The notes under the pieces: model-generated
The model's input: the letters and a program-made list of their open reading frames with translations, nothing else
What the model was told of the DNA's origin: nothing
The model's database searches: none
Assembly: GCA_024655945.1 (NCBI GenBank)
Contig: JANLFK010000001.1
Coordinates: forward strand, 652,116 to 716,115
Length of the DNA stretch: 64,000 bases
Direction: 5' to 3'
DNA from: a candidate division KSB1 bacterium
GTDB lineage: Bacteria; Zhuqueibacterota; Zhuqueibacteria; JANLFK01; Oleimicrobiaceae
Position numbers and translations under genes: made by a program
Part shown: positions 22,646 through 42,331 of the stretch, in pieces
Numbering within the stretch: the first letter of the stretch is position 1
How the letters are laid out: each line of letters begins with the position of its first letter

Positions 22646-22674
22646 GCTTTGTCGCGCAGGAACGCGAAGCAGCC

Positions 22675-25938: not shown

Positions 25939-28900
25939 TCACCGCAACTTCAAGGTCATCACCTCAAACGGTGAGAGCTTGATGCGTCCGCGTCCTTGTT
26001 CCCACCCTGGGCCTCCGCGCTCTCGCTCTAACAAATCCGCCACGTATGCTTTCTGTGTGCCGAGCTGCGCATGCACCGCGGCGGCAGCAGGTAGGCCCGC
26101 CGATTCATACAGGCGGAGGACGAGACTCTGGTCGTCTTCGCTCTGTTTCAGGGTGTCCACCACCAGCGATGGCGCGCCTGAGATGGCGACAAAGCTCATC
26201 CTTTCGGGCAGGGTGCCCGCGTGAGGCTTCTGGCGAATCACAAGAAGCGGCGCATTCAGCTCATAGCCCGCCTGCACCGTCCCACCTGCGCGCCAGTCGC
26301 CTGCGTGGGCCCAGAGCGCGTAGCCAAAGCGATGCAATCCTTCGTCGGTCTGTCCATTGTACAGCACGCCATATTGGCAACTTTGCGGGTCTGGCGCATA
26401 GCAGTTCTTTAGCAAGGTCAGGCGCAGGACGTTGTCGCGCACGTCGTAGCCGTACTTGCAATCGTTGAGCAGGCTCACTCCGTAGGTTCCGTCGCCAAGG
26501 TCTGCCCAGCGCTGCGCCGGCACTTCGAAGCGCGCTTGCTCCCAGGAGGTGTTGCGGCGCGTGGAGCGCGTGATGGCGCCGAACTGGATTTCGTAGGTGG
26601 CCCGTTCTGCCCACACCGCCACCGGGAAGGCTACCTTGAGCAGAGTGCGCGGATCGTGCCAGTCGGCGAGCGTGTCAAAGTCGATGCGGCGCAGGTCGCG
26701 ATAGAAGATGATGTCCTGAGCAAGGGAAGACCGGCTGCAGGCGAGCCGCACCCTTGCCACGGCGCACACCGGTCCGGCGTGGAAACGGACCTTTCCCCTT
26801 GGCCGCAGAAGCTGCAGGGGCCGAGCCTCATAGTCCGGCGCGATCTCCCAGGCCTCCCAGAAGGGCGGATAGTCCAAGAAGGTCTGCAGCACATTGCCGC
26901 GTGCGCCCTTTGCCAACACCTGCCGGGAGCAGTCCTTGTCCACGAGCCGTAGCAGCTCTCCCCTCTCGTTCAGCACGGCCTCGAAATGGGGTGTGAGCAC
27001 CCTGCCGTCCTCTGCCCGGCAGTCAGGCTGGGTCGCCGCCGGGCGTCCCTCCACCAAGCGGAAGGTGGTGTAGCCACAGGGCGGGACGTCGTGCGCGATG
27101 AACAGCACCTCCTCCCTTCCGTCCACGCGCCGCAGCCGTTGGTGCGGCACCGGACGACCGGAAAGGTCTTCGATCCTCAAGAAACGGGCCAGCCCCTCTG
27201 CAGGCAACGCAACTACGTCCGTGCGCGGCCAGCCTAAGGTGTTGAAGACGAGGAGGCTCTCCCCTGCACCGCCGGTGTTCACTAGCTCGCCGAGGGCCTG
27301 CAGTGCGTTGTCCCTTGCCCGGCCGGCATTTTCCCGCACGAACTCATAATCGGCCAGCGCATCCTGATAGACCTCGGGAATCGAGCTTCCCGGCAGGATG
27401 TCGTGGAACTGATTGCGCAGCAGGCGCTCCCAGCACGCACGCAAGGTCTCCGCCGGATAGGCGTGTCCAAACCGCGAGGCGATAGCGGCCAGGAGCTCGG
27501 CGTCGCGCAACAGGAGCTCGCACTGGCGATTCTCGCGTTTGATGGCGCCATGCGTGGTGTAGGTGCCGCGATGTCCCTCGAGGTAGAGCTCGTCTGCCCA
27601 CACCGGCAGGTCACGGCTATTCCGGCGTGCTGCAGCGAAAAACTGCTCCAAGCTCCCCTGCCGCAGAATCGGATGCCCTGGCGCGTGCGCCAGGCGCTTC
27701 TGCTGTTCCAAATGCGCACGGGTCGGCCCGCCACCGCCATCGCCGTAGCCAAAGGAGAGGAGCACATCGCGCGCCGAGTCCTTTTGGCGAAAGTTCTCCC
27801 AGGATTCTCGCACACCGGCCGCGTCCAGGCCCGCGCTGTAGGCCTGGCGATGAAAACAGAGGTGCGCCAGCACGCGCGAGCCGTCCACGCCTTGCCACCA
27901 AAACGTGCTGTACGGAAAGGGGTTCTGGTACAGCCACCCAATTTTGGCGGTGAAGAAATAGTCGATCCCAGCCTTCTTAAGGAGTTGCGGCAGCGCCCAG
28001 GAATAGCCGAACACGTCCGGGAGCCACAATACCCGCGCCGGGGCGCCGAATTCCTGTTGCAGGAAGCGTTGTCCGTAGAGAAGCTGCCGCACCAGCGACT
28101 CGCCGCTGGGAATGTTGCAATCGGCCTCGACCCACATGCCGCCGGTCGGCTCCCATTGCCCCACCTTGACCTTCTCGCAGATGCGCCGGTACAGGTCCGG
28201 GTAGGTCGACTTCACAAAGGCGTAAAGCTGCGGTTGGCTCTGCACAAAGTGGTACCAGGGATACTCCTCCATCAGCGCCAGCGCCGTGGCGAAGGTGCGC
28301 GCGCTCTTGCGCTGCACTTCCTTGATTCGCCACAGCCAGGCGACATCAATGTGCGCGTGTCCCATGGCCCACACGCGCCCAGGACAGCGGGAAGGCAACT
28401 CTTGCCAGGCGCGGCGGAAAAACCGCCCTGCGCGTTCCACTGCCGCAAAATAGTGTGCACTGCCTGGTTCCCGGGGATCAAGAAGCCGCATGGTCTCTGC
28501 CAGCAGTGTTGCCACCTGCTGCCGTTCTTCGGAGCCGGGTGGCAGCCCCGCCCACACATCCAGAGCAACGCGCAGGTCGTGGTAAAGCTCCCATGCGGCC
28601 GGCCACAGGAGCCGCAACTCAGCTTGGCGAAAGATGCGTCTTTCGTGGGTGAGTCCCGCGTAGGCCTCTATGGCCAGCGCAAAGCGCTCCCCTCCTTTCG
28701 CCCGGGGCGTGAGCAGATGCTCGCGGTGGTTGAGGTCGATCCCTTGCGCCGGCGCCCCATCCACGAAAAGCAACGACTCGTCAATATCGAGGTAAACTTG
28801 CACTGGACTGCCGCGCCACTGCTTGGGGACCTCGGCGTGCGCAAAGAACCAGGCCGTCTGGTCATAACCACCCCATGCGGCGGGCAGTTCAACTTCCGGC

Positions 28901-29034
28901 CAGTTCGCATCAGGGCCGGCCGCCACTCGGTCCGGAGCCATTTCGCCCTCCCAGATGCGCCACCGCGCCCAAGGTAACCGTGCCGCCCACAGATGCTGCT
29001 GCAACTCAATTGCGAATCGTAGGACTTTCTCCAC
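25939..29034 (-). CDS. Alpha-mannosidase, glycoside hydrolase family 38
   Basis: A 1031-residue GH38 enzyme, the usual length, probably cytoplasmic since no signal peptide is seen. The zinc site is in MGHAHIDVAWLW (about His226, Asp230), the nucleophile Asp near 340 in WLPDVFGYSWALPQLL, and other conserved parts include QSQPQLYAFVK, PTGGMWVEADCNIPSGESLVRQ and the C-terminal beta-domains with ALRLYESAG. It hydrolyses alpha-mannosides such as high-mannose glycan fragments, working with GlcNAc-handling genes next door. The GTG start (29034) has GGAGG 4 nt upstream; an upstream TTG in frame at 29085 lies inside the promoter. Divergent from nagA. Confidence 0.9.
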   Translation of the reverse strand: MEKVLRFAIELQQHLWAARLPWARWRIWEGEMAPDRVAAGPDANWPEVELPAAWGGYDQTAWFFAHAEVPKQWRGSPVQVYLDIDESLLFVDGAPAQGIDLNHREHLLTPRAKGGERFALAIEAYAGLTHERRIFRQAELRLLWPAAWELYHDLRVALDVWAGLPPGSEERQQVATLLAETMRLLDPREPGSAHYFAAVERAGRFFRRAWQELPSRCPGRVWAMGHAHIDVAWLWRIKEVQRKSARTFATALALMEEYPWYHFVQSQPQLYAFVKSTYPDLYRRICEKVKVGQWEPTGGMWVEADCNIPSGESLVRQLLYGQRFLQQEFGAPARVLWLPDVFGYSWALPQLLKKAGIDYFFTAKIGWLYQNPFPYSTFWWQGVDGSRVLAHLCFHRQAYSAGLDAAGVRESWENFRQKDSARDVLLSFGYGDGGGGPTRAHLEQQKRLAHAPGHPILRQGSLEQFFAAARRNSRDLPVWADELYLEGHRGTYTTHGAIKRENRQCELLLRDAELLAAIASRFGHAYPAETLRACWERLLRNQFHDILPGSSIPEVYQDALADYEFVRENAGRARDNALQALGELVNTGGAGESLLVFNTLGWPRTDVVALPAEGLARFLRIEDLSGRPVPHQRLRRVDGREEVLFIAHDVPPCGYTTFRLVEGRPAATQPDCRAEDGRVLTPHFEAVLNERGELLRLVDKDCSRQVLAKGARGNVLQTFLDYPPFWEAWEIAPDYEARPLQLLRPRGKVRFHAGPVCAVARVRLACSRSSLAQDIIFYRDLRRIDFDTLADWHDPRTLLKVAFPVAVWAERATYEIQFGAITRSTRRNTSWEQARFEVPAQRWADLGDGTYGVSLLNDCKYGYDVRDNVLRLTLLKNCYAPDPQSCQYGVLYNGQTDEGLHRFGYALWAHAGDWRAGGTVQAGYELNAPLLVIRQKPHAGTLPERMSFVAISGAPSLVVDTLKQSEDDQSLVLRLYESAGLPAAAAVHAQLGTQKAYVADLLERERGGPGWEQGRGRIKLSPFEVMTLKLR

Positions 29035-29072
29035 ATCTCCTCCATTACCGGTCCGTCCCAGCTCGAGGCCGA

Positions 29073-29101
29073 AATATAGCAACAAATGCCGCCAAATGCA
29101 A
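29073..29101 (-). promoter_or_regulatory. Promoter of the alpha-mannosidase gene
   Basis: On the minus strand TTGCAT (29096-29101) and TATATT (29073-29078) are 17 bp apart, start near 29066. This supports the GTG start at 29034. The -35 and -10 hexamers are identical to those of the divergent nagA promoter. Confidence 0.75.
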
Positions 29102-29423
29102 GCGGGCCATCACAGCGGCCAACCTGAACCAGGTGGCGACCACAGAGCACACGCAGAGCAGAGTTCGGGGCCGGCAAACGTTGGTGCCAAGCCGGGCGCG
29201 GCGCCTCACCGCACTTACCGTTCTGCGGGGACGAACAGCCACCAGCCCCGCCTCGGCATGGAACAGCTGGCGTGCCCCTCCCAGGGGAGAACGTGGTTCG
29301 CTTGGCAGCGGGAGGAGGATTTGCCTTGCGGATGAACCAGCGGCGGTTGACGCCCGTGATGTCGGCTCTCGCTCCTCTGCGTTGGCTCGCGCGGAGCTTC
29401 TTGTCGCCAGCGCAACAAAGACC
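29102..29423. other. Divergent intergenic region between GH38 and nagA promoters
   Basis: About 320 bp flanked by two outward-facing promoters with identical hexamers. No gene is recognisable; several open frames read through it in both directions but lack domains and ribosome-binding sites. I do not see a clear long palindrome that could be named an operator. Confidence 0.4.
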
Positions 29424-29452
29424 TTGCATGCCTGGAGCAAAATGGCTATATT
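29424..29452 (+). promoter_or_regulatory. Promoter of nagA
   Basis: TTGCAT (29424-29429) and TATATT (29447-29452) with a 17-bp spacer; start near 29459. The leader is about 20 nt and contains CGGAG before ATG 29480. Confidence 0.75.
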
Positions 29453-29479
29453 GGCGCAAGGAACCAATCGGAGACGCCT

Positions 29480-30637
29480 ATGCCAGAACGCCTCTTGCTC
29501 AAGAATTGCCTGCCGTACGACGCGCGTAGGAATGCCGCGCCAATCGACCTCTTGCTCGAAGATGGACGCATTGCCCAGATGGGGCCCAAGCTCTCCGCTC
29601 CGCCGGGAGCAGAGACCCTGGAGGCCGAGGGCCGCGTAGTGGCGCCAGGGTTCATTGACGTGCACATTCAGGGCGCAGGCGGCGCGGATGTGCTGGACGG
29701 GACAACGGAAGCCCTCCACACCATGGCCCGCACCCTGCCCCGCTTCGGCACCACAAGCTTCTTGGCGACCACCGCCTTTCACTTCAACAAACCGAACCAC
29801 CACTTGGAGGTGGCCGCCCGCGCTGTTGGCAAAGACTTGGGAGGCGCGCATCTGTTGGGGATTCACTTGGAGGGGCCGTTCATCAACCCGGATAAGCGCG
29901 GCGGTATGAGTCCCACCTGCATCGGGCCGCCATCCTCTCGTACCTGGGGCGAGGTCTTTCGACTCACCGGCGACGCTCTGAAGATGATGACCATTGCCCC
30001 GGAGCTGAACGGGGCGATACCGCTGGTCATCGAGCTCCTTGGCAAGGGGGTGGTGCCCTCATTCGGACATTCGGCGGCGACTTACGAGCAGGCGGCACAG
30101 GGTTTTGCTGCTGGTATCAGGCATGTCACCCATCTTTTCAATGCTATGGCGCCCTTTCACCATCGGGTGCCTGGGCCCCTGCCCGCCATCGCCGAGACCA
30201 AGGGCGTGACTGTGCAGCTCATCGCCGATGGCGTGCATGTGCATCAGGCGGCGGTGCGTTTGGCGTGGCGCCTTCTCGGCCCGCAGGGCATTGTCTGCAT
30301 CACCGATGGCATCCAGGCCCTCGGGCTTCCCGAGGGCGGGTACGTTTACAACGGCAGGGAGTACGAGGCGCGCAACGGGATCGCCCGCTACTTAGACGGC
30401 ACGCTCATCGGCACAGCGATGGGGCTGAACAGTCTGGTGCGGCGATTGCAGCTTTTCACCCGTTGTTCGCTCAAGCAAGCCATCGACACGGTGACTGCGA
30501 ACCCGGCGCGCCTGCTCGGTCTGCAGCGCAAAGGCGCCCTGGCAGTGGGAGCGGACGCTGACCTGGTAGTGCTGGAAGAGGGTCTTGCCGTCTGGGCCAC
30601 GATAGTCGGCGGAAAGACTCGCTTTCGCAGAGAATGA
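29480..30637 (+). CDS. nagA: N-acetylglucosamine-6-phosphate deacetylase
   Basis: A 385-residue amidohydrolase that removes acetate from GlcNAc-6-phosphate. The barrel motifs are complete: PGFIDVHIQGAGG (His62, Gln64), HLEGPF (metal-binding Glu131), SFGHSAA (His197), THLFNAM (His218), ADGVHVH, and the catalytic Asp276 in CITDGIQALG. The HxQ pair instead of HxH is compatible with a mono-metal enzyme like that of E. coli. It is transcribed divergently from the alpha-mannosidase gene and lies near a ROK kinase, permease and SIS protein, consistent with GlcNAc catabolism. No nagB is visible. Confidence 0.95.
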   Translation: MPERLLLKNCLPYDARRNAAPIDLLLEDGRIAQMGPKLSAPPGAETLEAEGRVVAPGFIDVHIQGAGGADVLDGTTEALHTMARTLPRFGTTSFLATTAFHFNKPNHHLEVAARAVGKDLGGAHLLGIHLEGPFINPDKRGGMSPTCIGPPSSRTWGEVFRLTGDALKMMTIAPELNGAIPLVIELLGKGVVPSFGHSAATYEQAAQGFAAGIRHVTHLFNAMAPFHHRVPGPLPAIAETKGVTVQLIADGVHVHQAAVRLAWRLLGPQGIVCITDGIQALGLPEGGYVYNGREYEARNGIARYLDGTLIGTAMGLNSLVRRLQLFTRCSLKQAIDTVTANPARLLGLQRKGALAVGADADLVVLEEGLAVWATIVGGKTRFRRE

Positions 30638-30699
30638 GGCGGGCCACACCCCGCGTTGGGGCATGGCACCGCCGTGCGCCCGCCTCGTCATGGGCTGCT

Positions 30700-30859
30700 G
30701 GCAAGCCGGAGGCTTGCCCTACCACGGCGAACGGATGCCTCACAGATTGGCGTGGCAGGAGCACTGCGCTCCTGTACCCCTTTCTCATGGCCGCTCCCCA
30801 AGACGTTCTCTCTGGCAGTATCCCGCAGGAACACAATAGGGCAAGCCAAAGGCTCGCCC
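30700..30859. repeat. Cluster of short palindromic intergenic repeats
   Basis: The 380 bp between nagA and the SIS gene (30638-31016) contain three hairpins: 30700-30718 (GGCAAGCC/GGCTTGCC, loop GGA, then CTACC), 30757-30773 (AGGAGC/GCTCCT, then GTACCCC) and 30839-30859 (GGGCAAGCC/GGCTCGCCC with one mismatch, then TACGG). All share a stem followed by a short TACC-like tail. They match the style of the 545-718 block. No protein-coding gene is seen here. Confidence 0.6.
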
Positions 30860-31016
30860 TACGGAAAGAACAGACCAACTTTGGAGAGTTGGCCTACACG
30901 TACAGCAAGGTTGCCGTGGCGCTTGGAGGCCGTGTGCTGCTGCGCCCATTCGCCGCAACGGCGGCGTCTACCTACGTCGCCCCGCGGCTCATGGCTCCTC
31001 TAAGCCATTCCCTCTG

Positions 31017-31778
31017 CTACACCCCGGCAATCCTCCTCTTGTACTCAGCCAGCGCCTCGCTCAGCCGCTCACGAGCCGTCGTGTCGCCTGGCACATTGTG
31101 CGAGGGATGAATGTACAGACGGTGACCCTTTTCCACGAGAATCTCGGCCACGGTGCTGATGATCATCCACACCGCCGTGGTGAAGGCGATGGTGGAGATA
31201 GGGCCCACGTTGTCCACGTGGTTCTTCAGCGCGACTACCGCATCGCGCGCGGGCACACAGGTGTCCACCACCACATCGGCGAGTTCAAAGATCTTCTTTC
31301 CGGAAGAGTGGCGCGTGGGCGCATCCTTGAAGGCCTGGGCCGAACCGGTGGCCACCACTTTCATGCCTAACCTCTTGGCCTCCAGCGCAACGTCGATGTT
31401 CACATTGTTGATGCCAGAATGGGAGAAGATCCACATGGTATCGCGCGGATCGAAGGTGTAACTGCGCATGATCTCCTTACCATACCCTTCCACCCTTTCG
31501 AGAAACACGAACTGGTGCACGCCCATCTCGCCCACAATGTGGGTGAAGAATGACAGCGGCAGTTCGATCATGGGATGGAAACCGACAAAGCCGCCGATGC
31601 GGGGGTACATCTCCTCTACCGGCAGGGTGGCGTGGCCGCAGCCGAAGGTATGCACCCAGCGCCCTGCGCCGATGGACTCGGCCATGATTGCCGCCGCTTG
31701 GGCAATATTCTCACGTTGCGTGGCCGCGATGTCATCGATAACCTTGCGTGCGTGGCCAAGCCAGATGTCAGCCAGCAT
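31017..31778 (-). CDS. SIS-domain sugar-phosphate binding protein (UPF0309/COG4821 type)
   Basis: A 253-residue cytoplasmic protein with a SIS fold, resembling the UPF0309 family of uncharacterised phosphosugar-binding proteins. Typical SIS stretches are WVHTFGCGHATLPVEEMY, WIFSHSGINNVNIDVALEAKRLGMKVVATGS and DTCVPARDAVV. SIS proteins isomerise or deaminate phosphosugars, or act as sugar-phosphate-sensing regulators. Placed 16 bp after the MFS permease in an operon with a ROK kinase and close to nagA, it could act on glucosamine-6-phosphate in place of NagB; this is inference. ATG 31778 has AGGGAG upstream. An in-frame GTG/ATG further up overlaps the permease. Confidence 0.82.
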   Translation of the reverse strand: MLADIWLGHARKVIDDIAATQRENIAQAAAIMAESIGAGRWVHTFGCGHATLPVEEMYPRIGGFVGFHPMIELPLSFFTHIVGEMGVHQFVFLERVEGYGKEIMRSYTFDPRDTMWIFSHSGINNVNIDVALEAKRLGMKVVATGSAQAFKDAPTRHSSGKKIFELADVVVDTCVPARDAVVALKNHVDNVGPISTIAFTTAVWMIISTVAEILVEKGHRLYIHPSHNVPGDTTARERLSEALAEYKRRIAGV

Positions 31779-31794
31779 TGCAAGCTCCCTGTTG

Positions 31795-32961
31795 TCAGTT
31801 CGTCTGTACGGTGCGCGCCAGGCGGCCACTCACCACGGTGAAGAGCCCGCCTGCGCACAACAGGCCAATGGGGATGAGGAGGAATGAGGCGCGCAAGCCG
31901 TGCGCGTCGCCGATCACGCCTGCCAAAGCCGGCAGGGTCATGCCGCCGGTCAATGCCATCACAAAGGCAATACTGAACGCAGTGCCGGAAAACCTCGGGT
32001 AGGCGTCACCGACAAAGCTCAGCACCGTGGGGAAGAGCCCGGCGAATCCTGCGCCGATCACGAACAGGCCGACCAGCGCGAGTCCCGTTGAGCGCGAAAG
32101 CAAGGTGAGAAGTGCGCCAACTAAGGCAGTGGCCATGGCGACGCGCACCACCTTCGCCCGAGCTGCCGCCTTGAGCATCGTACCCAAAATCAGGCGCGCC
32201 CCGACAAGCCCAAGCCAATAGGAAACCAGGCAGAGCACCGCCTTGTCTTGCCTGACGCCAAGCTCTTCCTGCAAAAACACCGCGCTCCAGCTCCCCGTGG
32301 TAATCTCCATGCCGCTTTGAAAGAAGAGCATGCCGCCGAGTAGGAGCAGGGTGGGCTGACCCACCAACTTCAGAGCATCGCGGAGAGGAAAGCCTTGCGC
32401 ATGCTTCGGCTTTGGAAAAGGCACGGCCAGCGTGAACAGCAGCGGGACCGCCACGGCAGCCCCGGCGATGCCGATGACCCACTGGTAGCTGGTCTGTGTG
32501 CCGAGCGCCCCGAGCAGCAGCGGCACCCCCGTGGCGCCGATGCCGAAAAAGACCCCCAGGAGGTTGAGACCGGCGCCACGTCCTTCCTCACTGATTTCGG
32601 CCACTAAGGCATTGGTCCCACCATTGATGACCCCGCCCCCCAGCCCGATGAGGAAGACGAAGGCGCGCAGCACGCCCATGGAAGGCGCCAGGGCAATCCC
32701 CTCGAACCCTATCAGGAGAAGGGCAGTGCAAAAGGCCAACAAGGCCTTGTAGCCGTAGCGGTCGGCGATCGGGCCAAAGACCAGAGAGCCGCTCAGGATG
32801 CCGAAGGAAAGAAGCGCCATGAGCGAGCCGGCCGCAGCCTTGCCGATGCCGAACTTGGGGATCACCTTCGGCAAAATGGCGCCCAGGGTGGTGAGCACCA
32901 CACCGAACATCAGCATCCCCAAACAGCAGGCTGCAAACACCTGCGCACGACGATAGCTCAT
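31795..32961 (-). CDS. MFS sugar permease (FHS/FucP-like)
   Basis: A 388-residue major facilitator transporter with about twelve hydrophobic segments, starting MSYRRAQVFAACCLGMLMFG. The loop 2-3 motif is GPIADRYGYKALLAF, and GGGVINGGTNALVAEIS with NLLGVFFGIGATGVPLL resemble the fucose/N-acetylglucosamine (FHS) group. Substrate is probably a neutral or amino sugar, by analogy with the operon. GAGGAA lies upstream of ATG 32961. The gene sits between a ROK kinase gene (7 bp) and the SIS gene (16 bp). Confidence 0.88.
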   Translation of the reverse strand: MSYRRAQVFAACCLGMLMFGVVLTTLGAILPKVIPKFGIGKAAAGSLMALLSFGILSGSLVFGPIADRYGYKALLAFCTALLLIGFEGIALAPSMGVLRAFVFLIGLGGGVINGGTNALVAEISEEGRGAGLNLLGVFFGIGATGVPLLLGALGTQTSYQWVIGIAGAAVAVPLLFTLAVPFPKPKHAQGFPLRDALKLVGQPTLLLLGGMLFFQSGMEITTGSWSAVFLQEELGVRQDKAVLCLVSYWLGLVGARLILGTMLKAAARAKVVRVAMATALVGALLTLLSRSTGLALVGLFVIGAGFAGLFPTVLSFVGDAYPRFSGTAFSIAFVMALTGGMTLPALAGVIGDAHGLRASFLLIPIGLLCAGGLFTVVSGRLARTVQTN

Positions 32962-32968
32962 GACTTCC

Positions 32969-33943
32969 TCACCATGTTTTCTTTCCGGCTGCCAGCCAGG
33001 CGAGGCGGGCGGCGCCATAGAGTCCTGCCTCGCCACCCAACGCGGAGGCCACCAGCCGCACCTGGGTTATGCTGATGGGCTGCGCCCACAGCCGTGCCTC
33101 TTCGGCGATACGTTCCAAAAACTGCACGGCCGGGCCAAAGACCCCGCCCCCGAAGATGATCTGCTCCGGGTTGAAAAGGCTCACCAGGTTAGCCACTGCC
33201 ATGCCCCAAAAAGCGATGCACTGGTCAAGAACGCGAATGGCCAGCCCATCTCCTTGGGCAAAGGCGGCAAAGACATCCGGCGCGGTGAGCTGCTCCGCGG
33301 GCTTTGCGCGCAATGGGCCACGATAATCGGGTTCGCGGGCGAGGAGCTCGCGGGCAAGGCAGGCGATGCCTGCGCCCGAAGCATAGTATTCAAAGCAGCC
33401 GCACGCCTTATACTCAGGGCGGTAGGGCCTGTCCAAGGCCAACCAGCCAATGGCGCCGGCCACATCACCGTGTCCCCGCAGCAGGTGGCCGTCGACCAGG
33501 ATGCCGGCGCCAATGCCCGTGCCCACCGCCAAGAAAATGGCGTTTCGGCACCCCTTGGCCGCGCCTTGCCACGTCTCGCCGAGGATGTAGGCGGCACGGT
33601 CGCTGTCGATGGTCACCACCAGCCGCGATGTAGCCGGCAAAGAGCTAATCTCCTCAAGGAGGGGGTACTCCTGCCACCCTGGGATGTTCGGCGCCCACAC
33701 CCGACCGCTGGCAGCGTAGTAAATGCCCGGTACCGAGACTCCAATGGCCTGCGGCAGATAGCCGCCGTCCTCCGCTGCCTCGAGCAGAGCGTTGATCTGG
33801 GCGCAGATGAGGGCGCCGACCTCGCGACCGCTCCTCTGTTGCAAGGGCACGATGTCTTTGCGCAGCGCCTGGCCCTCCTCGGTGAAAAGGGCCGTGGCCA
33901 ACTTGGTGCCACCCAGGTCGAGAGCTAACACGACGGGAGTCAC
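32969..33943 (-). CDS. ROK-family sugar kinase
   Basis: A 324-residue ROK kinase. The ATP site begins MTPVVLALDLGGTKLATAL (DLGGTK at 9-14), followed by GVSVPGIYY, DSDRAAYILGETWQG, FLAVGTGIGAGILVDGHLLRG (phosphoryl-acceptor region), and PEQIIFGGGVFGPAVQF. The usual ROK zinc site CxCGxxGCxE is reduced to ACGCFEYYASG, so zinc binding is doubtful. The substrate could be glucose, GlcNAc or ManNAc. First gene of the ROK-permease-SIS operon, with its own promoter. The GTG start at 33943 is chosen because longer frames begin inside the promoter. Confidence 0.88.
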   Translation of the reverse strand: MTPVVLALDLGGTKLATALFTEEGQALRKDIVPLQQRSGREVGALICAQINALLEAAEDGGYLPQAIGVSVPGIYYAASGRVWAPNIPGWQEYPLLEEISSLPATSRLVVTIDSDRAAYILGETWQGAAKGCRNAIFLAVGTGIGAGILVDGHLLRGHGDVAGAIGWLALDRPYRPEYKACGCFEYYASGAGIACLARELLAREPDYRGPLRAKPAEQLTAPDVFAAFAQGDGLAIRVLDQCIAFWGMAVANLVSLFNPEQIIFGGGVFGPAVQFLERIAEEARLWAQPISITQVRLVASALGGEAGLYGAARLAWLAAGKKTW

Positions 33944-33992
33944 CTTGGTCCGCCTCGCTCTTTCTTTGTTGCCACTCCCACGAATTGGTGAC

Positions 33993-34021
33993 AATATAAG
34001 AAAACGCCTGGGCGATTGCAA
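33993..34021 (-). promoter_or_regulatory. Promoter of the ROK-MFS-SIS operon
   Basis: Minus-strand TTGCAA (34016-34021) and TATATT (33993-33998) with a 17-bp spacer; start near 33986, leader about 43 nt to GTG 33943. Confidence 0.75.
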
Positions 34022-34180
34022 GAAGAAAAAGGCCCAACGCCGCGAGGGGCGTTCTACCGACAGGGCACCTTTCTCTTGCCGTCATGTGGGGGCGCTCGCT
34101 TCTCAGCAGCCCTCGCTGCCCAGCCGTGCCGCGGAAGCAGCTTTTGCTCCACCCCGAACGCAATCCGGCGCAGAAAACAC

Positions 34181-34209
34181 TTGACTTTTGCCCCCGCTGT
34201 GATTATATT
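34181..34209 (+). promoter_or_regulatory. Promoter of the SusC-like receptor/GH18 set
   Basis: TTGACT (34181-34186) and TATATT (34204-34209) with a 17-bp spacer; start near 34216. It faces away from the ROK operon promoter at 33993-34021. The 159 bp between the two promoters has no gene. Confidence 0.75.
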
Positions 34210-34215
34210 GCACGC

Positions 34216-34436
34216 GGCGGCCGGCCCAGTGGTGGCTCGTCTTTGTCTCCCGGACCCCGGCCACGCACCGCGGGAGAACAAGGCGTCCAGAAAAGCGAGA
34301 GGCGACCTTGGCTCACATATTGGGTGCGACGACACCATCGACAGACCCCACGCGAGAGGGAGTAATCCTCCTCGCTCCTTCCTCCACAGGGAGCAAGCTA
34401 CAGTGCAATCGTCTCCACAGCACGGAGGGATCACAT
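34216..34436 (+). other. Long 5' leader of the SusC-like receptor gene
   Basis: About 220 untranslated nt between the predicted start and ATG 34437. An imperfect stem can form near 34351-34375 (GCGAGAGGG against CCTCCTCGC). No known riboswitch class is recognised. The GGAGGGA ribosome-binding site lies at its end. Confidence 0.4.
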
Positions 34437-37400
34437 ATGGTGCATAGGCGTACTGCGCAGGGTTGGCTGGTCTCACTGACCGGCCTGGTGACACTGGTTT
34501 TGATTTGCATGTGCCCACCTGCACAAGCAGCAAATGGCAAGATAGCCGGTCGAGTCTACGACGCCCAGACCAAGGAGCCGTTGCCTGGTGCCAACGTCAT
34601 CGTCGAAAGCATTTGGCAAGCGGGTCGGCCGGTGCCGCTGGAATTGAAACTTGGCGCCGCAGCCGACCGGGAGGGATACTTTGTCATCCTCAATGTCCCC
34701 CCTGGCACCTATGACATAAGGGCCAGGATGATGGGCTATGGGCCCTTGCTCAAGCAACAGGTGCGGGTGAACTTGGACCGTACCACCACGGTGGATTTTG
34801 CCCTCAGCACCCAGGTGCTGGAGATGGGAGCTATCGAGGTGGTGGCAGAGCGGGAACCCATCCGCGCCGATGTGGCGGGCACGCAGGAGATTATCCTCAC
34901 TCAGCGACTGGCAGAGACCCCGGTGCTGCGCGTGGACGAGTTCGTCAACAAGATCAAGGGTGTGCAGCTGGTGGCCGACAATGACGGCCAGGGCCTCAGC
35001 ATCCGCGGTGGGGGCATCCGCGAGACCGACGTGCGCATCGATGGCATTTCCTTGCGCGACCCGCGCTCCGAGAATTCGTACCTCTCGCTCAACTCCACCT
35101 CCGTGGAAGAGTTGCACGTGCTCACGGGTGGGTTCCAGGCAAAGTACGGCGGCTTCCGCTCCGGGTTGGTCAACGTGGTGACCAAGGAGGGGCGGCGCGA
35201 CCGCTACTCGTTGTCCCTGCGCATGGATGCCACGCCCGGCGGACAGAAGAAGTTCTTCGGCGTCAACCCCTGGAGCGACGAGTCGTGGATCTATCGGGTC
35301 TTTGCCGACACGAGCGAAAAAGGCTACGCCTGGAAGGGCACCATCGGCGACACAACGGTGCCGGAGGAGCTGCGCTACTTCCGCGGGTGGAAACACAAGA
35401 ATGAAGGCAGGAGCAACTATGAGGCCATCGGCATCCCCCGCAACGCTAAGCTCACGCCCGAGCAGAAGCTGGCATTGTGGAAGCGGCAACACCCGCAGTA
35501 TCGCTTCGCCGACAAGCCAGACGTCTTCGTGGAGGGTACGCTCACCGGTCCAGTGCCGGGTGGCGGCTTGCCACTAGTGGGGGCCCTTCTGGTCCGCACC
35601 ACCTTCCTGGCTGGGTTCAAGTACGAAGACACGCAATTCGCCTTTCCCCTTGGGCCGCGCAACAACTACGTGGACTGGAACGGCCAGCTCAAGTTGACCA
35701 CCACCTTCAGCCCCAGCATAAAGTTGTCCCTGAACAGCATGTACGCCGAGGTGAATACCTTGACCGCCGGCCGGCCCAGCACCTTCGGCGGCGCGCTCAT
35801 CGATAACTCCAGCCGCTTCAACTTCCTCAGCAGCACCGAGGTCTCCGTGGCCCAGCAGGCCGCCCTGCTCGGAGGGAGCAACGGCTTCGTGCAGATGTTC
35901 AACAAGAGCCGCCTGCAGTTCTACGACAAACGCCTGCTCGTCGGCGGCGCCAAGCTGACGCACACCCTGTCGCCCAAGGCCTTTTACACAGTCGACCTGC
36001 AGGTGGGGTACACCGACAACAAACTCACCCCCTTCGCCTTGGACACCTCGCGCGCCGATGCCTGGTTCATGTTGGACAGCACCTACCGCGTGCTGGATGC
36101 GCCGAACAAGGGCACTCCCAACGGCTCCACCAACTGGCTGACCGACATCACCAACATGTTTTGGCTGTACGGCGGCCTGCAGGCTGCAGACTCTTCCTAC
36201 TCCTGGTCGGCGAACCTCAAGGCCGACCTCACCGCCCAATTAGGCCGGCACCACCAGCTGGAGACCGGCATCAGTGTCGACTTCAACCACATCTCGGTCA
36301 ACTCTGGCACCTGGTTGCAGTCGGAGCAAAGTTGGACGCCCGACACCTGGCAGTACTACACGGCCAAGCCGCTGGAGATAGGCGCCTACCTCCAGGACAA
36401 ACTCGAATTCCAGGGCATGATTGCCACCTTAGGCGTGCGGGCCGACTACTTCAATCCCAACAAGAAGGCGTATCTGGTTGCCCATCCGCTGGACCAGGAC
36501 TATGCTAACTTCTTCAACTTGGTCTACCAGTACTTGCCAGGGAAGTTCGGCTCGTGGGAAAAGTGGGTCAAGTTCCGCGAGATGTTAGATGAGCCGCCCG
36601 GTTGGCCGGCCACGGAGAACAAGACGCAATTGAAGCTCTCGCCGCGCGTGGGGGTCTCTTTCCCGATAACCGTGAACAGCAAGCTCTATTTCAACTACGG
36701 CCATTTCTACCAGCGGGCGAATCCCACCTTCCTCTACAATCAAGCGGTGATGCCGGGCGCCACCAATGTGCCCTGTCCTGACCTGACCATGGCGCGCACG
36801 GTTGCCTATGAATTCGGCTACGAGCAGAACTTCTGGAAGGACTTTTTGTTCAACGTCACCTTCTACTACAAAGACGTGAAGGATGAGCCGCTGTCGCGCT
36901 CCTATGTGGACTACTGGGAAGAGCAGACGGTGCAGAAGTATTTCCCCGATTTCTACAAGGACATCAGGGGCGCGGAATTGCGCCTGGAGAAGCGGCTCGG
37001 TCGCTTCTTCACCTTCTGGGGCAACTATGAGTACCGCCTGCAGACTACTGGCCGCACCGGGCTGGCTTACGTGTACGAAAACCGTCTGCGCGCCAGTGAG
37101 GAGGAGCGGTGGCCGAACATTGTGACCACCGACCCCAGGCCGCTTGCCCATGCCAACATCAACCTGCACACGCCCATGAATTGGGGACCACGCCTGTACG
37201 GGCTCTGGCCGCTGGCCGGCATCTACGTCAACTTTTTCTTCGAGTGGCAGGATGGCGGCCGGCAGATCATCAATCCGCAGGAGCCTGAGGAAAAGCAACA
37301 CCGCATCGAGGTGGTGGACTATTCCAACGCCGCCTTGCGCGCCGCCAAGATGGTACGCATCGCCGGGGTGAACATCGAGCTGGTGGCGACGGTGCAGAAT

Positions 37401-37616
37401 CTCTTCAACCAGAAGCGGCTGTCGTTCCAAAACATGAGCACCGCCCAGTTTGACCGGTACAAAAACTCGCTGCACCTGCCCTTCGAGAGCGGAGAGCAGC
37501 ACGGCAACGACAAGTTGGGCGAGTGGGACAAGGACTATATCGACATCGGTTGGTTCACGGCGCCCTTGTTCCTGAACCCGCGCCGCGTGCTCCTCGGGCT
37601 GCGCATCAACCTCTGA
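34437..37616 (+). CDS. SusC-like TonB-dependent receptor with carboxypeptidase-regulatory N-domain
   Basis: A 1059-residue outer-membrane protein. After a signal peptide ending CPPAQAANG comes a CarboxypepD_reg-like domain (about 35-130: GKIAGRVYDAQTKEPLPGANVIV, GTYDIRARMMGY). The plug carries VLRVDEFVNKIKGVQLVADN, GLSIRGGGIRETDVRIDG and GGFQAKYGGFRSGLVNVVTKEG. The remaining 800 residues form the barrel, ending PRRVLLGLRINL, a typical last strand. Such receptors import large oligosaccharides or other polymers with TonB energy. It is followed 7 bp later by the GH18 enzyme, consistent with import of its products. No separate SusD gene is visible. ATG 34437 has GGAGGGA at 7 nt. Confidence 0.9.
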   Translation: MVHRRTAQGWLVSLTGLVTLVLICMCPPAQAANGKIAGRVYDAQTKEPLPGANVIVESIWQAGRPVPLELKLGAAADREGYFVILNVPPGTYDIRARMMGYGPLLKQQVRVNLDRTTTVDFALSTQVLEMGAIEVVAEREPIRADVAGTQEIILTQRLAETPVLRVDEFVNKIKGVQLVADNDGQGLSIRGGGIRETDVRIDGISLRDPRSENSYLSLNSTSVEELHVLTGGFQAKYGGFRSGLVNVVTKEGRRDRYSLSLRMDATPGGQKKFFGVNPWSDESWIYRVFADTSEKGYAWKGTIGDTTVPEELRYFRGWKHKNEGRSNYEAIGIPRNAKLTPEQKLALWKRQHPQYRFADKPDVFVEGTLTGPVPGGGLPLVGALLVRTTFLAGFKYEDTQFAFPLGPRNNYVDWNGQLKLTTTFSPSIKLSLNSMYAEVNTLTAGRPSTFGGALIDNSSRFNFLSSTEVSVAQQAALLGGSNGFVQMFNKSRLQFYDKRLLVGGAKLTHTLSPKAFYTVDLQVGYTDNKLTPFALDTSRADAWFMLDSTYRVLDAPNKGTPNGSTNWLTDITNMFWLYGGLQAADSSYSWSANLKADLTAQLGRHHQLETGISVDFNHISVNSGTWLQSEQSWTPDTWQYYTAKPLEIGAYLQDKLEFQGMIATLGVRADYFNPNKKAYLVAHPLDQDYANFFNLVYQYLPGKFGSWEKWVKFREMLDEPPGWPATENKTQLKLSPRVGVSFPITVNSKLYFNYGHFYQRANPTFLYNQAVMPGATNVPCPDLTMARTVAYEFGYEQNFWKDFLFNVTFYYKDVKDEPLSRSYVDYWEEQTVQKYFPDFYKDIRGAELRLEKRLGRFFTFWGNYEYRLQTTGRTGLAYVYENRLRASEEERWPNIVTTDPRPLAHANINLHTPMNWGPRLYGLWPLAGIYVNFFFEWQDGGRQIINPQEPEEKQHRIEVVDYSNAALRAAKMVRIAGVNIELVATVQNLFNQKRLSFQNMSTAQFDRYKNSLHLPFESGEQHGNDKLGEWDKDYIDIGWFTAPLFLNPRRVLLGLRINL

Positions 37617-37623
37617 GGGCCAT

Positions 37624-38994
37624 TTGCATCTGTCCAGGCAACAAGGGAGTGTCCACCCCGCCGCACTGGTCTTGAGTGGCGCACTTCTGAGCTGTGCATT
37701 GGCGAGCTCCTCGCTGGCGGGAACGCGCATGGTCGTGGGCTATTACCCTTCCTGGGTGCAGCAGAGTTTTCCCCCTGCGGCGGTCGATTTTGCCAGGGTG
37801 ACGCACGTGGCCCATGCTTTTGCGTGGCCCAACGCCGACGGCACCATTGCTTCCTCCCCCGAGTTTGATCCGCGGGGATTCGTAGCGGCCGTGCACGGCG
37901 CCGGCAAGAAGGCGCTCCTCTCCCTTGGCGGCTGGGGGCAGTCGGACGGCTTTTCCCCGATGGCTGCAGACCCGGCACGCAGGGCCCGCTTCGTCAGGGC
38001 GGTCACCGACATGTGCCAGACACACGGTTACGATGGCGTGGACCTCGACTGGGAGTACCCGACGCTTTCGGATCGCGGCAATTTGACGGCCTTGGTGAGC
38101 GAATTGCACCAGGCCCTGGTCGGCATGACCCCATCCAGGCTGCTCTCCATGGCGGTGCCCGCAGGATCCTGGACGGCAGGCCAGTACGACTATCTCGCCC
38201 TCGCCCCGCATCTGGAATGGTTCGGGTGCATGACCTACGACTTTCACGGCAGCTGGACTGCGCACGCCGGGCACAATGCGCCGCTCTATCCCTCTGGCGG
38301 AGACCGGTGCGGCTCGGTGCACGAGGCCGTAACCTTTCTGCTTTCCCTCGGACTGCCCAAAGAGAAGCTGCTCATCGGCGTCCCGCTGTACGGACGACTG
38401 TTCAATGCCACGGGCTTGTACAGTCCCAGCACTGGCGGCGGCGAGCTATGGTACAGCGGCGCAGCGGCCCTCGCCCTCGCAGGCTGGACGTATCACTGGG
38501 ATGAGGCAGCGCGAGTTCCCTACCTCACCAATCCCAATGGCACGATGCTCCTGACCTTCGACGATACGGCCTCGGTGGCGCTCAAGTGCGCGTACATCGA
38601 AAGCAAAGGGCTTGGCGGAGCGATTGTCTGGGCGCTGGGGCAGGACGTGATCGGCGGCCAGCAGGTCCTCTTGGCAACCCTGGGCCGCAGGCTTCTCACT
38701 CCCACTGCGGTAGCGCAGAAACCAGGCAGGCCGGCAGGGCCGTTCTTGCGCTGCTACCCCGACCCGTGTAATGCTTCTCTCACCGTGCTCTACAACTCGC
38801 CGCAGCCCGGTATGGCAAGGCTCCAGCTTTACGACATTTGTGGAACAATGGTGTGGGAGAGCGAGGCGCCAGCATGGGGCGCCGGGGAACAGCGTATGCC
38901 CGTCGACGTGTCTGGCTTGGCCAGCGGCACGTACGTGTGCCGGCTGCAGGCGTCGTCAACGGTTCTCACCAGGAAAGTGGTGATCGTGCGATGA
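37624..38994 (+). CDS. GH18 chitinase/endo-N-acetylglucosaminidase with T9SS sorting domain
   Basis: A 456-residue secreted enzyme. Signal peptide: PAALVLSGALLSCALASSSLAG. The GH18 barrel has MVVGYYPSW, LLSLGGWGQSDGF, the catalytic motif DGVDLDWEYP (Asp137, Asp140, Asp142 and acid Glu144), MTYDFHGSW, IGVPLYGRLF and GAIVWALGQD. The last 80 residues are a type IX secretion signal (RCYPDPCNASLTVLYNS, GMARLQLYDICG, DVSGLASGTYVCRLQ, KVVIVR), so the enzyme is probably exported and surface attached. GH18 covers chitinases and ENGases cutting the chitobiose core of N-glycans; substrate is not certain. The start is TTG 37624 with GAGG upstream. Confidence 0.9.
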   Translation: MHLSRQQGSVHPAALVLSGALLSCALASSSLAGTRMVVGYYPSWVQQSFPPAAVDFARVTHVAHAFAWPNADGTIASSPEFDPRGFVAAVHGAGKKALLSLGGWGQSDGFSPMAADPARRARFVRAVTDMCQTHGYDGVDLDWEYPTLSDRGNLTALVSELHQALVGMTPSRLLSMAVPAGSWTAGQYDYLALAPHLEWFGCMTYDFHGSWTAHAGHNAPLYPSGGDRCGSVHEAVTFLLSLGLPKEKLLIGVPLYGRLFNATGLYSPSTGGGELWYSGAAALALAGWTYHWDEAARVPYLTNPNGTMLLTFDDTASVALKCAYIESKGLGGAIVWALGQDVIGGQQVLLATLGRRLLTPTAVAQKPGRPAGPFLRCYPDPCNASLTVLYNSPQPGMARLQLYDICGTMVWESEAPAWGAGEQRMPVDVSGLASGTYVCRLQASSTVLTRKVVIVR

Positions 38995-39052
38995 TTGCCG
39001 GAGCCCCTTTGGGCGACTATTGCCTACGGATGACCAATGAGGAGAAGCAACG

Positions 39053-41155
39053 ATGAGGCGACAGTTGTTCTGTTTTGCGCTCGCGAGCCTGTTCCTCTGG
39101 AGCAGCGCGCCTTCCCTGTGGTCGCAGAAGGACTACAATGGCCCCCCGCTGTTCATCGATGTGAACGCCATCAAGCTCGACATGAAGAAGCTGAACGGCG
39201 AGGGACAGTTCACCACGCAGTACAGCTGGATGCTCACCGGCACTGGCCCAGAAAAGACCGAGATCTTCTTCTACCCCCAGGACCAGTGGCACGCGCAACT
39301 GCTCTACCAGATCTTCAACCCCATCTGCCTGGATGACAGCGGCTGTGTGGACCAGAAGGGCAATCGCAAGATCATCCCTACCCCTTTTGTAAGCAACGGG
39401 GTGAACGACTGGTCGCAGGAGATCCGCCGCTATCGCCCGCCCTATGTGACCGTCGACGGCGTGCCATTGTTCCGCGAGTATCGCTGGCAGGTGGACCCCA
39501 AGCTGAAGCCGGACATCGCCGCCGTCTGGGAGGATATCCTCCCCTTCTGGGGCATTCGCACGCACGTGGAGGTCTATGCCTTCAGCAACCCCAATCATCA
39601 GGACTACATCATCTGGAAAGGCACCTACAAGTTCACGGGCGAAACCAGGCGGCCGATTGAGAATCCAGGCCCGGAGGATGTGTTCCCCGATCAGACGATT
39701 CGCCTCTGGTGGCCGGTGGCCTTCAGCTTCGGTCCCTCCAAGGCTGGCGAGTACGAGGTGTTCGGCCACTTCGCCTACGAGGGGGAAGACGATTTGGACA
39801 GCTGGTTCGCGCGCAAGTCACAGCTGGTGATAGGTCGGGCCCGCGATACCCTGAAGGTGGCCTACTACTGGGACTCCACCCTTGGCGGAAGTGCCGCTTA
39901 TCCCAACGGCAGAAGGGACCACACGGGCGACCCAGATCGCACCACCGGCCACCTGATGTCGCCGCAGGTGCCCGGCTATGCGCTGCTCTACGCCTGCACT
40001 TCGCCCACCGATCCGGCCGATGATCCTACGCAGCCCTACGCGATGCCGCACGCCGGAATCGTCAAGGACCTTTGGGGGCGGCGCGACTTTGGCCTGCGCG
40101 ACACCTACATCGGTCACGATAGCCGCGGCAAGTTCCCGAAAGACGCTATCACCGAAGGGTGGGCCACCAGTCCGGAAAAGGGCCCGATGCGCTTCATCAC
40201 CGTGGGGCCCTATCGGCTGACCAAGAACGCCGCTGTCGGTCGCTACGATTCCATCACCGTCGTCTACGCCATCGGCGTGGGCTCACTGTCGTGGGAGATG
40301 GCAGACAGCATAGGCAAGGCCTGGTTCCGCGGGCAGCTCACCGATGAGGAAAAGAACGCCTGGGTACTCACAGGGCGCGACTCGCTGTTCAAGGTCTTGG
40401 ATCGGGCGTACTGGGCGTGGAACCGCGGGCTGGACATTCCCGACCCGCCGCCTCCGCCGGATCTGGAGGTGATCAGCGACGCCGATCGGGTCGTGGTCAA
40501 ATGGTCATACCCCGATCCGTCCTACTTCAAGGACCCCGACACGGGCGTGGACGACTGGTATGCCTGGCGCGTGTACCGCAAGAAAGGGGCCTCTTTCGTG
40601 GGTGATCCTCAGGACGCCTACAGTGGCGAACGCTGGCAGCTCATTTACGAGACCACCAACCGCAACGAGACCACGTACATCGACAACGACGTCACGCGCG
40701 GCGTGAGCTACTACTACGCGGTGACCGCGGTGGACAACGCCACTCAGAATCGTGACGGCCTCTTCCCGGGGCAAAAGCTGGAGAGCTCGCGTTTTGCCAA
40801 TCGTTCGGCCATGCCCGCCATACCCTTCAAGGCCGGTCTGGCCACCACCGAGCGCGTGCGCGTGGTGCCCAACCCAGCAACGAGCAAGGCGGGTGGCCTT
40901 GGTTTCCCCGGCACTGCCGACCGCATCCTGTTCACCCAACTGCCCTACAAGTGCAAGCTGCGCGTGTTCACCGAGACAGGTGACCAGATCACCAGCATCG
41001 ACCACTTTGGCACGGACCAAGAGGTGTGGGATCAGCGGACCGATGCCAATCAGTATGTGACCAGCGGCATTTACATCCTTGCGGTCACTGAGGCGGAAGA
41101 CGTCAATGGCCGCCAGCTCCCTGACCAGTTCGTCAAGTTTGTGCTGGTCCGTTAA
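39053..41155 (+). CDS. Large secreted protein with FnIII-like region and C-terminal sorting-like domain
   Basis: A 700-residue protein with signal peptide (FALASLFLWSSAPSLWSQ). Most of it has no recognisable catalytic domain. A conserved two-part beta-rich region spans about residues 20-470 (with WSQEIRRYRPPYVTVDG and LWWPVAFSFGPSKAGEYEVFG). An FnIII-like segment lies at about 475-590 (PPDLEVISDADRVVVKWSYP, TYIDNDVTRGVSYYYAVTAVD). The C-terminal 95 residues (RVRVVPNPATS, LRVFTETGDQI, TSGIYILAV, VKFVLVR) resemble a T9SS-type sorting domain. GAGGAG precedes ATG 39053. It lies between the GH18 gene and the PorV/PorQ gene, and may be a surface scaffold or binding protein. Function is unknown. Confidence 0.75.
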   Translation: MRRQLFCFALASLFLWSSAPSLWSQKDYNGPPLFIDVNAIKLDMKKLNGEGQFTTQYSWMLTGTGPEKTEIFFYPQDQWHAQLLYQIFNPICLDDSGCVDQKGNRKIIPTPFVSNGVNDWSQEIRRYRPPYVTVDGVPLFREYRWQVDPKLKPDIAAVWEDILPFWGIRTHVEVYAFSNPNHQDYIIWKGTYKFTGETRRPIENPGPEDVFPDQTIRLWWPVAFSFGPSKAGEYEVFGHFAYEGEDDLDSWFARKSQLVIGRARDTLKVAYYWDSTLGGSAAYPNGRRDHTGDPDRTTGHLMSPQVPGYALLYACTSPTDPADDPTQPYAMPHAGIVKDLWGRRDFGLRDTYIGHDSRGKFPKDAITEGWATSPEKGPMRFITVGPYRLTKNAAVGRYDSITVVYAIGVGSLSWEMADSIGKAWFRGQLTDEEKNAWVLTGRDSLFKVLDRAYWAWNRGLDIPDPPPPPDLEVISDADRVVVKWSYPDPSYFKDPDTGVDDWYAWRVYRKKGASFVGDPQDAYSGERWQLIYETTNRNETTYIDNDVTRGVSYYYAVTAVDNATQNRDGLFPGQKLESSRFANRSAMPAIPFKAGLATTERVRVVPNPATSKAGGLGFPGTADRILFTQLPYKCKLRVFTETGDQITSIDHFGTDQEVWDQRTDANQYVTSGIYILAVTEAEDVNGRQLPDQFVKFVLVR

Positions 41156-41191
41156 CCTGGCAGCCTTTTGCGGCAAGAGCGAGGAGAAACC

Positions 41192-42211
41192 ATGAAGAGC
41201 AGACTGGTGTTGCTGATGATGGCGGTGACGCTTTGCGCGGCGTTACCCCTGCAAGGGCAGATTATCAAGAAAGGCCAGGTGGGGTTCAGGTTCTTGGAGA
41301 ATCCCATATCTGCCGAGGCCGTAGGACGCGGCTGTCTGGGCGTGGCGGCCGCTCGCAGTGCCAACGCCGTTTTCTGGAATCCTGCCGGCTTGCCTTGGAT
41401 CGACGGCCGATGGGATGTGGCGCTCAACTACACGAAAGGGATTGCCGACATCAATCACACCTCGGCGGCCGCGGCGTTACAGCTTTCCCGCGTGGGCACA
41501 CTGTGTTTGGATGCCATCATGATGGACTATGGCGATTTCTACGGCACCCGACGCGCCGACAACGAGCAAGGTTTCATCGATACGGGCGTATTCTCGCCAT
41601 CCGCCTGGGCAGTCGGCCTTTCCTTTGCACAACGGGTGAGCGACCGCTTCTCCTACGGCGTGCATCTCAAGTACGCCTACCAGGACCTTGGCGACGCTTG
41701 GGTGGCCACTGCCGGCGCCGACGTGGACGACCCCAACTTGCGGATCGCGCAAAAGTCCTACGCGCACGGTGAGCCGGCAGTGGATGTGGGCGCGGTCTAT
41801 GACTTTGCCTATCACGGCATCCGCTTCGGCGCCGTCATCCAAAACGTCTCTCGCGAAATCCGCTACGAGAGCGAGAAATTCCCCTTGCCGTTTGCAGTGA
41901 GCTTTGCGCTGAACGTCAATCCGCTGTCGTTCCTGGTCCCTGAGCTCAACGGGCATGACCTCGTCCTGGGCTTTGAGTCGCGCCACCCGCGTGACTTCAA
42001 AGAGAAACTCAAAGTAGGAGCCGAATACACGTTCCACGAGGTGCTCCTGGTACGCGCGGGGTACATGGGCAACTATGACGAGCGCGGTCTGACGGCGGGC
42101 ATCGGCGTGCGGCAGAAGGTCGGCAGCTCCACAATGCGCATCGATTACGCGTTTCAGGACTTTGGCCTGTTCAGCAGCGTCCACCTTTTCACGTTCGGCA
42201 TGAGCTACTGA
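41192..42211 (+). CDS. PorV/PorQ-family outer-membrane protein
   Basis: A 339-residue porin-like protein with a signal peptide ending LPLQGQ. It begins VGFRFLENPISAEAVGRGCLGVAAARSANAVFWNPAG, the diagnostic opening of the PorV/PorQ group in FCB bacteria, and continues as a 14-strand-type barrel (LNYTKGIADINHTSAAAALQ, RVSDRFSYGVHLKYAYQ, FGAVIQNVS) ending HLFTFGMSY. PorV is a component of the T9SS that helps attach cargo; PorQ acts with other parts. Its position right after two proteins with T9SS-like tails suggests a dedicated partner. ATG 41192 has AGGAGA upstream. A strong hairpin follows the gene. Confidence 0.85.
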   Translation: MKSRLVLLMMAVTLCAALPLQGQIIKKGQVGFRFLENPISAEAVGRGCLGVAAARSANAVFWNPAGLPWIDGRWDVALNYTKGIADINHTSAAAALQLSRVGTLCLDAIMMDYGDFYGTRRADNEQGFIDTGVFSPSAWAVGLSFAQRVSDRFSYGVHLKYAYQDLGDAWVATAGADVDDPNLRIAQKSYAHGEPAVDVGAVYDFAYHGIRFGAVIQNVSREIRYESEKFPLPFAVSFALNVNPLSFLVPELNGHDLVLGFESRHPRDFKEKLKVGAEYTFHEVLLVRAGYMGNYDERGLTAGIGVRQKVGSSTMRIDYAFQDFGLFSSVHLFTFGMSY

Positions 42212-42266: not shown

Positions 42267-42331
42267 GCGCAATTGCTCAGCCAGATGGACGCCGCTCAGC
42301 CGGCAAGTTAGCAATGATTAAGGAGACGAGC

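Follow-up and report, generated by a model that had tools for sequence, protein, structure and literature searches.

The stretch of DNA analysed here (the window, 64,000 nucleotides of contig JANLFK010000001.1 from a candidate division KSB1 bacterium) carries, between positions 25939 and 42211, a group of nine genes that a first-pass annotation had assigned to the use of high-mannose N-glycan rather than of chitin alone. With moderate confidence, this region is read here as a conserved block for the uptake of an N-acetylated amino sugar from the envelope to the cytoplasm, the sugar being of chitin type where a gene of glycoside hydrolase family 18 (GH18) is present. To our knowledge, no member of KSB1 has been cultured. 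New here are the definition of the conserved block itself, a receptor cassette without SusD that is associated with the type IX secretion system (T9SS) and with PorV-family proteins, and a kinase paired with a SIS protein whose residues depart from textbook use of N-acetylglucosamine (GlcNAc). Gene families were assigned by the cut-offs of Pfam and of curated models (TIGR, PRK and NF) and by sequence matches to the PDB, and all nine genes named in the first-pass annotation are real, being intact open reading frames with strong family matches.

The genome hosting the window (G000; 3.94 Mb, 97.7% complete) was compared with 81 related genomes, and 82 genomes of the phylum were searched for the SIS protein. 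It is present in 16 of these, in 13 of them at an identity of at least 76%, the next value down being 40%. The recurring arrangement is a divergent block in which the genes for the SIS protein, a major facilitator superfamily (MFS) permease and a ROK kinase face those for a TonB-dependent receptor (TBDT), in some copies GH18, a large exported protein here called S700 and a PorV-family protein; it is shared by five families of the class and one Neomarinimicrobiota genome. As judged by reading the neighbourhoods, the block is complete in G000, G002, G046, G047, G051, G063, G065 and the Neomarinimicrobiota locus L078, and partial, interrupted by contig ends, in G001, G050, G053, G059 and G060. 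The MFS gene is conserved between those for SIS and ROK in the relatives, and the TBDT orthologues occupy the same position. Outside the genus of the window, identities amount to 76-81% for SIS, 69-76% for S700 and 63-73% for TBDT, against 54-59% (whole alignment) for ROK and 41-56% for MFS; the greater conservation of the receptor and S700 with respect to the kinase and the permease suggests an unchanging ligand. The nagA gene adjoins the block in the genus of the window and lies beside the SIS gene in G046, G047 and G060. The GH38 alpha-mannosidase gene, which is divergently transcribed, adjoins it only in G000 and G002, both of that genus, and is absent at the six loci of other genera with a readable flank (G046, G047, G051, G052, G063 and G065); in G001, G060 and L078 the contig ends too early to judge its adjacency. 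The synteny therefore extends to other families, but without GH38, which is a genus-level neighbour outside the conserved block, and both nagA and GH38 are less tightly linked to the block than its own members.

The use of an amino sugar, already proposed in the first-pass annotation, is upheld by this conservation and by the predicted enzyme content of the genome. NagA matches its equivalog model (TIGR00221, 292.6 bits, cut-off 225.65), while NagB and GH20 are encoded elsewhere, the sole GH20 gene lying next to peptidase genes (G000:C6:34401), so that GlcNAc catabolism is complete as far as predicted functions go.

The GH18 protein, the only one of its family in the host genome (Pfam, 226.9 bits), looks like a chitinase-type enzyme rather than one acting on N-glycans. 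It contains the catalytic DxxDxDxE signature as DGVDLDWE (residues 137-144), its best PDB matches are chitinases and chitinase-like lectins, and it scores 106.6 bits with the ChiD model and 19.4 bits with that of Endo H (cut-off 300), both values being below cut-off. The choice between a chitinase and an endo-beta-N-acetylglucosaminidase, on which the N-glycan proposal depended, thus falls to the chitinase type. The enzyme has the catalytic signature and the MTYDFHGSW region in common with Paenibacillus ChiW (PDB 5gzu); unlike ChiW, it consists of a single short domain followed by a T9SS tail, and a chitin-binding module was not seen. Among about 20 related GH18 loci, eight carry GH20 (G035, G036, G037, G042, G065 and G076, with a shorter GH20 in G015 and G039), and some an SSF-family symporter or GH94; the loci combining GH18 and GH20 often add a sodium symporter, another ROK, a NagB-like protein or GH94. 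Because the relatives of the enzyme adjoin GH20, GH94 and a sodium symporter, chitin-type chains would be a better fit than high-mannose N-glycan. The GH18 proteins of the block do not separate from those of chitin-type loci in a maximum-likelihood tree; a distinct clade for them is unsupported, the tree being poorly resolved, with three label changes.

Some further observations concern amino-sugar enzymes in the related genomes. Proteins of about 800 amino acids with a region resembling glucosamine-6-phosphate deaminase are encoded at L055:1469-3850 and L142:563-3016, the latter also including a part similar to PIG-L deacetylases and lying beside a chitin cluster. In the G065 copy of the block, a YdjC-family protein (L127:104-1018) adjoins PorV; the YdjC Pfam family includes chito-oligosaccharide deacetylases.

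On the envelope side, the receptor, initially described as SusC-like, does contain the carboxypeptidase-regulatory and Plug domains (Pfam) expected of the receptor of a SusCD locus, but the SusCD pair is not found, since SusD (PF07980) has no match in the host genome, while a Bacteroides control was matched. The prediction that GH18 is exported by the T9SS is supported by a C-terminal sorting domain (TIGR04183, 32 bits, cut-off 23), and the presence of a SprA gene in the genome (TIGR04189, 891 bits over the joined frame, cut-off 200) makes export by this route plausible. S700 has no Pfam domain even at an E-value of 0.5, and its tail is recognised only by a hidden Markov model of T9SS tails built in this analysis. 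Its AlphaFold2 model has a mean predicted local distance difference test (pLDDT) value of 57; the better C-terminal part is modelled as an FN3-like domain plus the tail, and Foldseek returns mainly FN3-domain proteins. From its position, S700 may take the place of SusD at the receptor. The protein reported as PorV/PorQ belongs to the broad family (PorV_fam, NF033709, 166.2 bits, cut-off 90) and falls below the cut-offs of both specific equivalogs (PorV, 70.8 of 250; PorQ, 80.9 of 220), so that only the broader assignment is retained.

The host genome has 37 PorV_fam matches, 28 of them over the cut-off and including the window gene. Of 32 PorV genes in the stretches examined, 27 come immediately after a gene for a T9SS-tailed or S700-like protein, and for 19 there is, in addition, a TBDT gene within the next two genes; moreover, each of the phylum's 82 genomes contains PorV_fam, with at least 8 matches (scoring covered at most about 23 candidates per genome). 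Given this recurrence, the succession of receptor, exported protein and PorV is a general cassette in these organisms, of which the window copy is one member with GH18 in the middle. The expansion of the PorV/PorQ family is visible across the whole genome G000, for example at L061, L062, L063 and L067. A literature search for PorV and TonB receptors in KSB1 found no paper, nor did one for KSB1 and type IX secretion, and a survey of the KSB1 phylum makes no mention of TonB receptors or type IX secretion (PMC9012183).

On the cytoplasmic side, the permease is an MFS protein (MFS_1, 110.6 bits); its earlier description as FHS-like is not supported, the best curated models being far below cut-off (2A0115, 73.7 of 418.55; TsgA, 67.7 of 221). 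The ROK kinase (Pfam, 152.8 bits) and its orthologues keep the DxGGT motif and the catalytic Asp, with D35, G37, G38, T39, K40 and D141 invariant. In all 11 orthologues, however, SDRA replaces NDxN and AxGW replaces ExGH (S140, A190, W193), and the zinc cysteines are reduced, whereas in the five PDB relatives that match best the Asn-Asp pair is intact and Glu and His stand at the corresponding places, and related ROK proteins encoded in chitin clusters retain the canonical motifs as far as these were checked. The AlphaFold2 model has a ROK fold (predicted template modelling score 0.79), in agreement with Foldseek, with a loop at about 189-208 of such low confidence that the shape of the pocket cannot be argued from the model. 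In Plesiomonas NagK, the matching Asn104 and Glu154 coordinate the 3-OH of the sugar (PMC10031466). The role in GlcNAc phosphorylation initially given to the kinase therefore appears doubtful, and the altered pocket hints at a sugar of the bacterial cell wall.

The SIS protein belongs to the UPF0309 group (PRK02947, 232.5 bits, cut-off 135), and the only proteins of known structure related to it in sequence are 3cvj and Streptomyces NagS (PDB 9eol). NagS (SCO4393), a distant relative within the same UPF0309 group and the nearest one to have been characterised, is related to MurQ and dehydrates GlcNAc-6-phosphate to 6P-chromogen I; the homologues tested from outside Streptomycetaceae, with 26-36% identity, were inactive or nearly so, and Ser91 is needed for full activity, the S91A variant showing a 40-fold lower kcat/Km (PMC12680351). 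The essential NagS residues His53, Arg64, Glu94 and Asp179 are kept in the block protein as H66, R77, E111 and D196, as are Ser119, Ser121 and Asn228, while Ser54 and Ser91 are replaced by Ala67 and Val108. With the essential residues kept and these two serines replaced, the protein is probably an elimination enzyme acting on another 6-phospho sugar. Since NagS and MurQ have the C2-C3 elimination chemistry in common, the 6-phosphate of N-acetylmuramic acid (MurNAc) would be the obvious candidate. A role as replacement for NagB is not needed, a true NagB being encoded in the genome, and the protein is not the sole MurQ candidate either, as a genuine MurQ lies elsewhere (391 bits, cut-off 302). 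A profile comparison between the SIS protein and this MurQ gave nothing beyond one short motif, and a literature search on UPF0309 found no paper. Distant SIS proteins (35-40% identical) adjoin a ROK gene at L137 and L138, with a methionine-synthase-like gene nearby, so that the SIS-ROK pairing is wider than the block.

The uptake of an N-acetylated amino sugar would proceed as follows. The T9SS would export GH18 and S700 to the surface, where the dedicated PorV-family protein may assist in their delivery or retention. Chitin-type chains would be cleaved by GH18, and the fragments would be bound by S700 at the mouth of the TBDT, in the position filled by SusD in Bacteroidota, and then imported through the receptor. 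Once trimmed, possibly by the separately encoded GH20, the sugar would enter the cytoplasm through the MFS permease, receive a phosphate at C6 from the ROK kinase, and reach glycolysis by way of the SIS enzyme and NagA and then NagB. Several findings weigh against this reading. The sugar-recognising residues of known GlcNAc and N-acetylmannosamine kinases are missing from the kinase, and a genome with NagA and NagB has no need of the SIS protein in order to use plain GlcNAc. GH18 lies between TBDT and S700 in G000, G002, G063 and L078, and is absent from that position in G046, G047, G051 and G065, so that chitin cutting would be optional. Furthermore, G052 is an exception, having SIS and MFS without the rest of the block, a comparison of ten loci revealed no operator common to ROK and TBDT, and no fold was obtained for the N-terminal half of S700 (AlphaFold2 pLDDT about 22-35, residues 21-149).

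Among the other explanations, plain use of GlcNAc or chitobiose, in the manner of the Shewanella nag cluster, can be entertained tentatively. The kinase would then be an unusual but ordinary GlcNAc kinase and the SIS protein a side enzyme, and the combination of permease, kinase, SIS, NagA and TBDT does resemble the Shewanella chitin pathway (PMC2996990), with NagB present in the genome; this is countered by the loss of ExGH and NDxN from the kinase in every orthologue and by their retention in the chitin-cluster kinases mentioned above. Scavenging of MurNAc appears rather unlikely. In this case the receptor cassette would import cell-wall fragments, the ROK protein would be a kinase of MurNAc (a 3-O-substituted GlcNAc), and MFS, ROK and SIS would work like MurT, MurK and MurQ of Tannerella, the SIS protein being an etherase-type lyase that gives GlcNAc-6-phosphate for NagA. 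The specificity of Tannerella MurK for MurNAc has been traced to two positions being small, namely that of Thr94, which immediately precedes the catalytic Asp, and the site at which a Glu or His of other kinases gives way to small residues (PMC10465942), a pattern that all 11 block kinases match, in sequence only, with Ser140 before Asp141 and Ala190 in place of Glu; the loss of the two residues that hold the 3-OH in a true NagK, and the kinship of the SIS protein with the MurQ-related NagS, whose four essential residues it keeps, point the same way. However, human NagK is also small at one of the two positions (PMC10465942), so that small residues permit MurNAc without proving it, and Trp193 in place of His is bulky. 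Moreover, the genuine MurQ makes a second etherase unnecessary, the SIS protein matches PRK02947 only and no MurQ model, and aligns with the MurQ of the genome over one short stretch only, and the GH18 and YdjC neighbours point to chitin-type chains. A stronger version, in which the block would be a second, independently evolved MurNAc-scavenging system, with a ROK-fold MurNAc kinase and a UPF0309 lyase that cleaves MurNAc-6-phosphate at its lactyl ether, supplied through a SusD-less TBDT with its T9SS-exported partner and its own PorV, is quite unlikely, although it would give a function to UPF0309 proteins outside Streptomyces. Finally, the use of high-mannose N-glycan, with GH18 cutting the chitobiose core, a cytoplasmic GH38 trimming mannose and NagA handling GlcNAc, is very improbable: GH38 and nagA are indeed adjacent in the genus of the window, and GH38 (Pfam GH38N, 294 bits, with middle and C-terminal domains) is closest to the Ams1-type mannosidases, which act on mannose oligosaccharides (PDB Ams1, E 1e-140), and is probably cytoplasmic as it has no obvious signal peptide, but GH18 is of chitinase type and its relatives have chitin-type neighbours, GH38 is a transcription unit of its own outside the conserved block, and within the block there is no mannose-specific gene and no other N-glycan enzyme (the rest of the genome was not searched for GH92, GH125 and GH130).

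By strand, the nine genes of the region form four units, namely GH38, nagA, ROK-MFS-SIS and TBDT-GH18-S700-PorV, and therefore not one operon; ROK and TBDT are transcribed divergently. For SIS, MFS and TBDT, comparison with orthologues places the probable start sites inward of the open reading frame starts. No regulator gene was recognised in the window copy of the block, and in L078 a LacI-type regulator lies between ROK and TBDT.

Table 1. Genes of the region, with positions in the window.
Feature	Position	Strand	Basis and remarks
GH38 alpha-mannosidase, Ams1-like	25939..29085	-	Pfam GH38N, middle and C-terminal domains; PDB Ams1; HAHID and WLPD motifs
nagA, N-acetylglucosamine-6-phosphate deacetylase	29480..30637	+	TIGR00221
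SIS protein, UPF0309/PRK02947 group	31017..31829	-	PRK02947; probable start 31778
MFS permease	31795..33036	-	Pfam MFS_1; probable start near 32961
ROK kinase, altered sugar pocket (S140-D141, A190, W193)	32969..34021	-	Pfam ROK, alignments
TonB-dependent receptor (TBDT)	34308..37616	+	Pfam domains; probable start 34437
GH18 chitinase-type enzyme, type A T9SS tail	37624..38994	+	Pfam GH18, TIGR04183
S700, large exported protein	39053..41155	+	C-terminal FN3-like domain and T9SS-type tail
PorV/PorQ-family outer-membrane protein	41168..42211	+	NF033709

Two neighbouring genes are also found in G002. A second, ordinary TonB-dependent receptor, with beta-barrel and Plug, lies at window positions 22558-24801, and an exported-looking protein of 337 amino acids without Pfam match follows PorV at 42314-43327, its counterpart in G002 being 78% identical.

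A block with a defined border provides concrete enzymes to test, and the kinase and SIS pair in particular allows a direct test of the function of UPF0309 outside Streptomyces. The repeated cassette of receptor, exported protein and PorV without SusD suggests an alternative way of building a nutrient receptor complex. The region described here resembles the SusCD loci of Bacteroidota in that a TBDT lies beside genes for a large surface protein, for a secreted glycoside hydrolase and for catabolism; it differs in that SusD is missing from the genome by PF07980 and that the partner bears a T9SS-type tail, with a PorV-family gene coming next. NagB-II of Shewanella is an enzyme of the SIS type. 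The Shewanella nag/chitin cluster (NagP, NagK, NagB-II, NagA and Omp-Nag; PMC2996990) has a permease, a sugar kinase, a SIS protein, NagA and a TBDT in common with the genes described here, whereas in the present genome the SIS protein is of the UPF0309 group and not NagB-II, the canonical NagB lies elsewhere, the kinase pocket is altered and a T9SS cassette is added. With murTKQ of Tannerella forsythia (PMC10465942), the block has in common a permease, a kinase that is small at the two MurNAc-specificity positions and a protein of the SIS superfamily; in contrast, the kinase here is ROK by sequence, which MurK is not, and the SIS protein belongs to UPF0309 and is not MurQ, which is encoded elsewhere in the genome.

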